A DNA stretch of 64,000 bases. Origin: an uncultured Chitinophagaceae bacterium (lineage in GTDB: Bacteria > Bacteroidota > Bacteroidia > Chitinophagales > Chitinophagaceae). Shown piece by piece: positions 23,792 to 48,538 of this stretch. The notes below the pieces were generated by a model. It had not been told where the DNA came from, ran no database searches, and worked only from the letters and a program-made list of their open reading frames with translations. The stretch's first letter is position 1. Each line of letters begins with the position of its first letter. The stretch lies in contig CAISDV010000089.1 in the NCBI GenBank assembly GCA_903884185.1, positions 1 to 64,000 on the forward strand. The letters are read 5' to 3'. A program made the translations under genes and the position numbers.

Positions 23792-23816
23792 AAAGGGGGG
23801 CGGCAATCTGTGTTCA

Positions 23817-23915
23817 CACAGAGTCTCCTTCGGCTCAACAAGCAGCTTTGTAAATAAGAGCTATCATTTTTTAAGACAACATGATCTTTTGCAAATAGCC
23901 GAAGGGACTCTGTGG
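23817..23915. repeat. Inverted repeat with 19-nt arms
   Basis: cacagagtctccttcggct (23817-23835) and agccgaagggactctgtgg (23897-23915) are reverse complements apart from one inserted base. The 61-nt loop has no ORF. The cacagag ends recall the dispersed GCCACAGAG elements, but the arms otherwise differ. Confidence 0.7.
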
Positions 23916-23926
23916 ATTCCATGTTC

Positions 23927-24080
23927 TATGCTCATTGTTGCTTCAAAGTAGCTTCGTTGTATGCTCATCCTTGCTTCATTGTATGCTCAAAGTATGCTCA
24001 TTCTTGCTTGTTTCTATAGTCATCAAAGCCTCATCAAGGCGTCATGAGAGCCTCATGAAAGGCTCGTTGTTGCTTCAGGA
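23927..24080. repeat. Degenerate tandem repeat with 11-bp period (array A, forward)
   Basis: Fourteen consecutive 11-nt units can be cut without slippage: tatgctcattg, ttgcttcaaag, tagcttcgttg, tatgctcatcc, ttgcttcattg, tatgctcaaag, tatgctcattc, ttgcttgtttc, tatagtcatca, aagcctcatca, aggcgtcatga, gagcctcatga, aaggctcgttg, ttgcttcagga. The conserved core is GCTCAT with variable flanks. No ORF of note runs through it. Confidence 0.85.
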
Positions 24081-24181
24081 GGTGGACGGGCCTGCCTGAA
24101 CGCAGAACTTGAGCACAGGTGCAATATACTATCGCCGGGAAGCAATAAATTTGAAAATGTAACGAAGAGTTAAGGGAGCTG

Positions 24182-24235
24182 GAACGAAACGGGGTTTACT
24201 GTGAACGAAACCGGGTCTGCTGTGAACGAACGGCT
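24182..24235. repeat. Short 21-bp tandem repeat
   Basis: gaacgaaac-type units begin at 24182, 24203 and 24224, exactly 21 bp apart (gaacgaaacggggtttactg, gaacgaaaccgggtctgctg, then a diverged third). It lies between the two halves of the 11-bp array. Between 24081 and 24181 I see nothing recognisable. Confidence 0.7.
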
Positions 24236-24272
24236 AAAAAACAGGCAATTTTGCTATCCGGATTTTCGTGTT

Positions 24273-24349
24273 TTGAGTATAGGTTGAGTATACCTTGAGT
24301 GAACGATGAGCGAAGGATGAGTATAGAACGAGGGAATCTGAGGCTATGG
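24273..24349. repeat. Degenerate tandem repeat with 11-bp period (array A, reverse)
   Basis: Seven 11-nt units: ttgagtatagg, ttgagtatacc, ttgagtgaacg, atgagcgaagg, atgagtataga, acgagggaatc, tgaggctatgg. The core ATGAGC is the complement of the GCTCAT core at 23927-24080, so this half is inverted relative to the first. It ends about 60 bp before the kinase start codon. Confidence 0.8.
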
Positions 24350-24411: not shown

Positions 24412-25487
24412 ATGAGCGATGTAAAATTCATTGATGCGACTGGTTGGAATGAACTTTCTTGGTATAATAGTGGAGGTACTAGGGCAAAAAGAGTGCTACA
24501 ATCCCCTGATAATAAGGAATGGTTTTTCAAATGCTCTGAAAAGAAAGAAGCAAAAGACGGCAAGCCTGCAAAATATTATCGCTTTGAGTTTTGGTCTGAA
24601 ATACTAGCATACCAATTAGGGGAGCTACTAAAATTAGATGTTTTAAGATATGATGCCGCTATATATGCTGATCAAATTGGCTGTATTAGCGAAAACATGA
24701 TTGTGACGGATAAAGAACAGTTGATAGAGGTTGGCCGGTTTATGACAGCAATCAATGATGAGTTTTCCCCGGAGATTAATCAAACCCGAAATCAGTATAC
24801 ATTTCAATTGTTGGACGATACGCTGAAGCACTTTGAGCTTTCAAAGTTCATGCATTTATTTTTTCAAACACTTTTGTTTGATGTGATCATTGGTAACACA
24901 GACAGGCACCAGGAAAATTGGGCCTTTATTGGCAAAACATCCTTTTTATCGAATGTTTTGGATCAACTTGAATCTCAAGCAAAAGAATTTAATAAAGGGC
25001 CTTCGATGCTTAAAAAAATATATCTGCGTTATGTCGAAAGAGATAAGAATGAATTGAAAAAGGAATTCAAGGAAATGAGGTTACAAGTCACGAATATTTT
25101 GAGGATGGCACCAATTTATGACAATGGCAGTTCCCTTCCCTGGCCAGAGAGCTGGCAGACGAAAGAGTGGAACAGTTATTGTATGATGAAGGTCAGTTGG
25201 CTAGGTATATTGAAAAGGGATTATGCGAGGTACATTGGAACAAGGAAAAGTTAAGTCATTTTGATTTAATCAAGAATCTGCTAAAATCACAGTATCTTCA
25301 AGAGGTAAAAAAGGCAGCTGATTTTCTGGATAATTGGAATGAAAATGCCATTATTGAAATTGTGAATAATATAGATGCTTCGGTACCGCAAGATTGGTCT
25401 CGCTATAAAATACCACAACAAAGAAAGGATTTGATTTCAAAACTTATATTTTTGCGGGCTAAAAAATTACAGGGATTATTACACTGA
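24412..25487 (+). pseudogene. HipA-like Ser/Thr kinase, frameshifted near the C-terminal third
   Basis: A HipA/CtkA-like kinase split over two frames (24412-25254 and about 25144-25487). The first part holds the catalytic motif IGNTDRHQENW (HxxN loop) and the metal-binding MAPIYDNGSSL; the reading then departs from the family. The other frame continues it as ARELADERVEQLL, AYIEKG-like RYIEKGLCEVHW and HFDLIKNLL. The junction contains the 5-bp tandem copy ttccc-ttccc (25131-25140); removing one copy restores GSSLARELADE in one frame. So a single recent 5-bp duplication appears to be the lesion. A truncated kinase, slippage-restored protein or sequencing error are alternatives. HipA-type kinases act as toxins by phosphorylating cytoplasmic proteins. 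The partner gene overlaps its stop. Confidence 0.85.
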
Positions 25488-26140
25488 TGGAATTCGATAA
25501 AATATATCTGGTTTGGCGAAAGGGCAGCGGCAACAACCGTCATGCTGTTGGTACACTTGAGAAACAGGTGGATGGCAGACATTTTTTTTCTTATTTGCCG
25601 GCAGCAATTGAGTTACAGAAAACAGAAGGATTTACGCCATATACCGAATTTCAGGATTTAAACAGGTCTTATAACGGAAATGTGGCTGAAGTTTTTGGAC
25701 AAAGACTTACCAAATCAGATCGCCCTGATGTGGATTCTTTTTATAAATTTTGGGAAGTAGATGCTGATAAAGCAAATGATAAATTTTATCTCTTGGGTAA
25801 AACTCAGGGATTGGTTCCTACGGATAACTTTGAATTTTTAGCTGAGTATAAAATGCAGCCAGGCATTCATTTTCTTACAGAGCTTGCCGGGTTGTCTAAA
25901 AGACAACTGGAAAAAGGGTTATTACAAATAGGAGACACCTTGACCTTCGAAAAAGAGCCACAAAATGAGAAGGACAGGTATGCTGTAAAAGTATTTAAGA
26001 ATGAAAAATTTGTGGGATATATTAAAAAATATCACAGTAAAATATTTTATGATGCCGGTGCAGATAAATTAAAACTATCAGTAAAAGCGCTAGATCAAAA
26101 CGGCACTATTAAAAGAGTATTTATCAAAGTTTCTCTCTAA
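25487..26140 (+). CDS. HipA N-terminal-like / HIRAN-domain partner protein
   Basis: A 217-residue protein that starts on the last base of the kinase stop codon (tgatg), so the two are translationally coupled. The N-terminal half resembles the HipA N-subdomain (FDKIYLVWRKGSGNNRHAVG, YNGNVAEVFGQRL), including a LTKSDRPDVDSFYKFW stretch. The C-terminal half (about 120-217) is a HIRAN domain (PGIHFLTELAGLSKRQLEKG, EKDRYAVKVFKNEKFVGYI), which in other proteins binds DNA ends. The likely role is antitoxin, regulator or recruitment factor for the kinase, similar to HipB/HipS-type partners; that is inferred from order and domains. Confidence 0.8.
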   Translation: MEFDKIYLVWRKGSGNNRHAVGTLEKQVDGRHFFSYLPAAIELQKTEGFTPYTEFQDLNRSYNGNVAEVFGQRLTKSDRPDVDSFYKFWEVDADKANDKFYLLGKTQGLVPTDNFEFLAEYKMQPGIHFLTELAGLSKRQLEKGLLQIGDTLTFEKEPQNEKDRYAVKVFKNEKFVGYIKKYHSKIFYDAGADKLKLSVKALDQNGTIKRVFIKVSL

Positions 26141-48286: not shown

Positions 48287-48428
48287 TGATAATGGTTTGG
48301 TTTGATAGTATAGGGTAACAACAGGTATTTCAGATGGCAGTGGCCAAATTTATTAATTCTTCTAATATGAGTATCGCTTATTCGGTAAGAATTTGTTAAG
48401 GAGGGGTGAAGATGGGGTTGGGATGGGT

Positions 48429-48538
48429 TTGCCATAAGGTTACTATGGCTTTGCCATGGCGTTAGGTAGGCGTTACTATACGGGAACAGCGAAGGACGAG
48501 CGAAGGATGACCGAAGGATGGGCGTAAGACGTGTAGAA
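48429..48538. repeat. Degenerate tandem repeat with 11-bp period (array B)
   Basis: Ten 11-nt units in register: ttgccataagg, ttactatggct, ttgccatggcg, ttaggtaggcg, ttactatacgg, gaacagcgaag, gacgagcgaag, gatgaccgaag, gatgggcgtaa, gacgtgtagaa. The later units share gaGCGAAG with array A (atgagcgaagg). It lies in the 324-bp gap before the small gene at 48611; 48287-48428 otherwise holds nothing recognisable. Confidence 0.8.

Follow-up and report, generated by a model that had tools for sequence, protein, structure and literature searches.

The window, a stretch of 64 000 nucleotides from an uncultured Chitinophagaceae bacterium, contains one copy of an element that is short, lies between genes and is scattered through genomes of the Chitinophagaceae and of some other Bacteroidota. 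The elements are built from 11 bp units in exact phase, are dispersed between genes and, in two families, have five-unit arms that meet at a dyad and do not covary with one another. Our preferred reading, in which our confidence is evenly balanced, is that these are phased nucleoprotein assembly sites at which a putative protein would read one unit per turn, and that they would act in chromosome organization or topology and not in the control of neighbouring genes. What appears to be conserved is the geometry and not the sequence: the 11 bp step, and often the five-unit count, recur across several sets of words in two classes.

Structure of the element in the window

The left array (positions 23927–24080) comprises 14 in-register 11 bp units, of GCTCAT/GCTTCA type on the + strand; the core ATGAGC/ATGAAGC lies on the − strand and reads outward from the centre. 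Two classes of word make up this array, with approximately 5–6 inner units of roughly TGAGGCTTTG type and approximately eight outer units of TGAGCATACA/TGAAGCAAGG type. The right array has ATGAGY units on the + strand in a strict 11 bp register from 24274. An earlier note, made from the letters of the window, had described the 14 left units, and phase scoring against shuffled sequence bears them out: at period 11 they carry 138 bits of phase information, compared with a mean of 24 and a maximum of 45.5 over 1000 dinucleotide-preserving shuffles. The right array gives 70 bits (mean 26 and maximum 42.8 over 1000 shuffles of the same type), so that both arrays lie far beyond chance. When periods of 3–33 were tested on both arrays, only 11, 22 and 33 stood out.

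Between the arrays lies a conserved middle (24154–24273, + strand), with AACGAA words at 24161, 24183, 24204 and 24225 (spacings of 22, 21 and 21 bp); immediately 5′ of the right array it has a hairpin-like CCGGATTTTCGTG followed by TTTT. A 21 bp repeat at 24182–24230 had previously been taken to be a separate feature. The repeat is present but is not separate, as it belongs to the AACGAA series of the same element. The window copy as a whole is thus a composite of 14 + 5 units: a longer left array, the conserved middle and a five-unit right array.

Two further features of the window may be recorded here. An inverted repeat, CACAGAGTCTCCTTCGGCT/AGCCGAAGGGACTCTGTG, occupies 23815–23836 and 23897–23914, immediately to the left of the left array; GAGTCTCTCGAAGAGGACTCTG, which lies beside another copy in the same genome (on contig C112), resembles it. 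A second, intergenic array with 11/22 bp periodicity and units of CGAAGGATGAC type is found at 48423–48520 on the + strand.

Copies in the same genome and neighbouring genes

The genome that contains the window (2.95 Mb in 188 contigs) was searched for further copies using BLAST and patterns; copy numbers in this and in all other genomes are lower bounds. BLAST located a composite copy on contig C122 (75%), the middle and right array on C140 (83%) and a weaker match on C112, together with left-type arrays on C101, C4, C63, C147 and C158, the first three of which stand alone. The pattern searches added C79 and a second site on C122. The C147 array runs to approximately 33 units. The middle of the window copy agrees with those on C122 and C140 at 91–93 of 119 positions (∼78%) and is shared more weakly by C112.

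The right-hand boundary can be read from a three-copy alignment, in which the right array of the window is matched at 53 of 53 bases on C122 and at 51 of 53 on C140. The 25 bases after the fifth unit show near-chance similarity among the three copies, and because the similarity stops there the element ends exactly after this unit. The right array (24274–24329) therefore consists of five units, TGAGTATAGG, TGAGTATACC, TGAGTGAACG, TGAGCGAAGG and TGAGTATAGA, beginning with TGAGTATAGG and closing with TGAGTATAGAA. The earlier count was seven; the first five stand, and units 6 and 7 (ACGAGGGAATC and TGAGGCTATGG, ∼24330–24349 on the + strand), past the point at which similarity is lost, are probably flank.

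The same genome has other short repeats. Tandem repeats of 7 bp (GTTACTGGTTGCCAG type) are frequent in samples of its non-coding DNA (26 sites in 433 kb), and a further set of 11 bp words, TGAATATGAAG/TGAACAAGACA, occurs at C11:10264 and C104:23540 with adjoining ACGAACNAG arrays.

The first gene to the right of the window copy is HipA-like (24412–25487) and starts 63 bp beyond 24349, in keeping with the ∼60 bp previously estimated. Its match to the PADLOC candidate defence protein PDC-M03A is split into two parts (profile positions 2–155 and 181–274); as these are in different frames, the gene appears to carry a frameshift in this assembly. The gene that follows, HIRAN (25487–26140), matches PDC-M03B. 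The earlier note had suggested regulation or targeting of these two genes. A specific role of this type is not supported: the composite and partial copies elsewhere in the genome adjoin genes that are unrelated to one another (an amidohydrolase, a PIF1-like helicase, FolD, a protein with a type IX secretion signal and others), and the HipA-like gene carries the apparent frameshift noted above. An operator for HipA was rejected on these grounds.

The clearest form of the element

The clearest family was found in the genome G131, which probably belongs to the genus Chitinophaga to judge from a word that it has in common with Chitinophaga sedimenti. At least 16 intergenic copies follow one plan, in which two inverted arms join at a dyad and the total length is ∼176 bp. 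Each 88 bp arm has five core units, TGAACSWAGGW, followed by approximately three outer units of NNNNNNAAGGA type. Because the elements were picked by requiring three units in phase, selection acts in part on the inner units but not on the outer units or the opposite arms; with this in mind, all 224 of the 224 units scored (units 2–8 of 32 arms) fit best in phase, and the departures from the consensus amount to 616 substitutions and no indels in 2816 bases. Within the 160 core units C5 and A8 are each kept in 158 and A3 in 153, position 6 is C or G in 158 and position 7 is A or T in 159. Positions 6 and 7 together are CT in 82 units, GA in 53, GT in 21 and CA in one. The core pattern is passed at unit indices 1–5 in 31, 32, 32, 32 and 31 of the 32 arms and then in only four of 32, and the core run is exactly five units long in 26 of the 32 arms. 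Conservation peaks at the inner units and declines towards the outer ones; the outer ends vary.

These figures suggest constraint and not plain decay, since decay after dispersal would strike all positions and would create indels. They also bear on whether the arrays are neutral, degenerate minisatellites produced by replication slippage. Plain tandem repeats of variable length do occur in the same genomes (the C147 array and a CAGATAACTCT array in G131), as does the 7 bp class in the genome of the window. Slippage, however, does not sit well with an absence of indels among so many substitutions, with a few words and forbidden combinations, with a dyad flanked by five-unit arms or with the same outer words (NNNNNNAAGGA) being placed around different inner words. 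We regard a minisatellite origin as very unlikely overall, and for G131 and the Mariniphaga family described below it is largely refuted.

The earlier note had offered a phased binding site or a bending region. The register supports the former. Bending fares less well as the main cause: a wedge model gave an estimated curvature z of approximately −3 for the window arrays and a mean of −0.95 over the 16 elements of G131, and intrinsic curvature was rejected as the main cause given this weak signal.

Inverted arms might instead be transcribed and fold upon each other as an RNA hairpin. The window element does fold at −150.9 kcal mol−1 (z = −5.9 against shuffles), although inverted arms built from one set of words will pair automatically. 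Arm-to-arm covariation is absent both in G131 (permutation p = 0.96) and in Mariniphaga (p = 0.998). As the two arms of one G131 element are no more alike, and pair no better, than arms taken from different elements, pairing is not maintained. C122 and the window have the same right array but have diverged in the remainder of the element, and there is no match in Rfam. At the two convergent loci of G131 that were scanned, an intrinsic terminator faces the element from each side, so that it is beyond a terminator in either direction. Paired arms without covariation and elements between facing terminators indicate that DNA and not RNA is read, and the hairpin is the least probable of the explanations weighed here.

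By a simple open-reading-frame rule, the neighbours of the G131 copies are convergent in approximately five cases, tandem in ten and divergent in one, and are of diverse function. With the copies in the genome of the window included (27 in all, counting the window itself) the figures are approximately eight, 16 and three, i.e. a placement at 3′ ends. Along contig C1 of G131 the 16 copies leave a 2 Mb gap from 4.41 Mb to the contig end/start (4.41 to 6.31 Mb).

The same plan in other words

Apart from those for G131, Mariniphaga and the window family, the counts of five units were made by eye. Mariniphaga sp. LH_M28 has at least eight elements, and each of the 16 arms contains exactly five units of TGARTTWACAT type; an 8 bp spacer, ATTATAAT in most cases, separates the arms. 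By eye, C. sedimenti has at least two elements with 5 + 5 units, Pedobacter cryoconitis has at least four with approximately 3 + 5 units, and one locus of the genome G813 has 5 + 5 units in which an unrelated inner word, TATACGGGACA, is combined with outer units of the G131 type. A flanking GGTAAAATACTATC motif near some of the Chitinophaga arrays was considered and rejected, as it is not consistently tied to them.

The comparison of G131 with Mariniphaga is informative with regard to a wrapping site for gyrase or another topoisomerase, similar to BIME-2 of Escherichia coli. The dyad, the length of ∼176 bp, the helical period and the intergenic position at 3′ ends would all suit such a site, and in the gyrase motif of E. 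coli the flanks show a 10.75 bp GC wave, with BIME-2 elements being gyrase sites (PMC6379681). The arrays, however, have no GC wave in common: G/C falls at unit positions 2, 5, 6, 9 and 10 in G131 and at 2, 4 and 9 in Mariniphaga. The conserved letters moreover look base-specific, and gyrase would need no species-specific word. We consider a topoisomerase site to be improbable.

The words can also change at a single site. At the lipoate-ligase locus the matched parts of the genes are ∼57 bp apart in the genome G810 versus 545 bp in G131, and the corresponding intergene of G813 holds a different 11 bp array, of CAGGGAAAGGG type. This turnover is the strongest point in favour of a nonautonomous mobile element (MITE-like or REP-like), in which the arrays would be recognition sites for a transposase supplied in trans and the copies would be selfish, without a host function, and it is the strongest point against a conserved host site. 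Relatives such as G810 have little or no room for the element at the locus and lack it there; the window family shows dispersed copies with a sharp right end, the distribution over species is patchy and the families of words are private to species. G585, which belongs to another family of the same class, has four TGACGG arrays of five units, and three of these follow TATAGGAG or a similar sequence and have, by eye, imperfect CTGACA inverted ends; these arrays are possibly a MITE-like relative. On the other hand, inner units that are the most conserved, with conservation fading outward, are the opposite of what is seen for transposon tips. No target duplication could be demonstrated, the lipoate-ligase intergenes being too diverged for one to be read. 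Nor did we find a phage, plasmid or viral carrier of the arrays; a loose pattern matched 37 viral stretches, and those inspected are plain tandem repeats. The Y1 HUH (RAYT-type) transposase was not found in G810 or G381, and no array stands beside the Y1 genes of G131, G813 or the genome of the window. As the Y1 transposase does not track the arrays, a REP/RAYT system was rejected. Mobility of some type is, in our view, rather unlikely, although it has more in its favour than the other alternatives.

Distribution

The arrays are not confined to the window: they recur in its own genome, and both in further genera of the Chitinophagaceae and in additional classes of the Bacteroidota. The two objections foreseen in the earlier note, a phase no better than in shuffled sequence and arrays that occur nowhere else, both fail. 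A strict pattern (TGARYRWA three times at 11 bp steps) matched six of 396 genomes of the family, several in multiple copies, and, among 395 genomes of the phylum, one AT-rich genome outside the family; the reversed control also matches a small number of genomes, G016 and G131 among them. Reversed control patterns match G016 20 times and G515 18 times, and such matches may be further 11 bp arrays with other words. TGA five times at 11 bp gave 25 matches and no control matches in the genome of the window. Among 198 genomes of the phylum it gave the four five-unit copies in the distant G585, and some other genomes match the control only. A wider pattern scan of genome contigs picks up minisatellites and coding repeats as well as real arrays, and its taxon counts were not used.

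Motif-free period scans covered non-coding DNA, ∼400 kb per genome and 200 kb for the outgroup G637. Period-11 sites, some of which are weak or plain tandem repeats, numbered five in G810, five in G813, seven in G131, six in the genome of the window and three in G381, and one in the outgroup. In G810 and G131 no period outside the multiples of 11 accounts for more than one site; G813 also has four sites at period 21 and two at period 8. Separate classes of 7 bp and 8 bp appear in the genome of the window and in G381, respectively. In the Chitinophaga-type genomes G810, G813 and G131, 11 is the prominent intergenic period, which it is not in the outgroup sample.

Proposed function

The constant geometry, the restricted alternatives at fixed positions, the lack of indels and the dyad point to a protein that reads one unit per turn. 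As each 11 bp unit would correspond to one helical turn, all units would lie on the same face of the DNA. A putative sequence-specific protein could bind one unit in each turn, with cooperative assembly along the array. An element of the standard form would then carry two assemblies, each spanning five units and opposite to the other in polarity, that meet at the dyad, and the resulting compact nucleoprotein node might wrap or bridge chromosomal DNA, with consequences for chromosome organization or topology.

Several observations count against a phased host site. The words differ among species and, between G131 and G813, even at the lipoate-ligase site, which is odd because a chromosome organizer would be expected to be conserved. 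The distribution is patchy, as the six family genomes matching the strict pattern illustrate. The number five is not fixed either, given the 14 units of the left array in the window, the long array on C147 and the approximately 3 + 5 units of Pedobacter. A bolder version of the phased-site reading, which we put forward tentatively as possible, is that the elements are phylum-wide centromere-like or bridging sites made of two five-unit phased filaments of opposite polarity. The words would then be rewritten between species together with a fast-diversifying binding protein, while the 11 bp geometry and the five-unit count stay fixed.

If sites of this type are bound as proposed, they would provide a known bait for pull-down experiments that could reveal new nucleoid, partition or mobile-element machinery in Bacteroidota. 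The sets of words would also lend themselves, as a natural series, to the question of how a protein retains its spacing while its recognition words change.

Comparison with known systems

REPs are hairpins of 20–40 bp that are associated with RAYT transposases. Like REPs and BIMEs, the arrays are short palindromes interspersed between genes, frequently on the 3′ side of a gene, and their families are specific to species. They differ in being ∼176 bp long with 88 bp arms (in G131) and helically phased, and in lacking arm covariation and an association with RAYT. The E. coli gyrase motif is likewise long, roughly symmetric and of a helical period near 11 (PMC6379681), but it is degenerate and based on a GC wave, whereas the arrays are word-specific without a common wave.

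The earlier note knew of no named element of this kind, and this agrees with our searches, which returned no Rfam, plasmid or phage match and no description in the literature covered, subscription papers being mostly outside it. Among the closest parallels are two plasmid systems. In parC of R1 the repeats are arranged in two clusters of five. ParR of R1 needs 11 bp repeats (PMC9426499), and the title of a reference cited in that paper speaks of ten repeats flanking a promoter. The stbDRs of R388 are two sets of five 9 bp repeats with 2 nt spacing, bound by StbA (PMC3098194); the 11 bp period and the 5 + 5 count of this system, which has one binding protein, are seen again in the arms of G131 and Mariniphaga. 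The differences lie in arrangement. The stbDRs are described as direct repeats at the promoter of their own operon on a plasmid, while the arrays are inverted, chromosomal and dispersed and have no single operon. In parC the orientation is also direct, and each plasmid has a single site, next to parM/parR. Nothing of this applies to the arrays: their flanking genes are diverse, no cognate gene was found and the window element has no plasmid match. On this comparison the resemblance to stbDR and parC is one of construction and not of membership.
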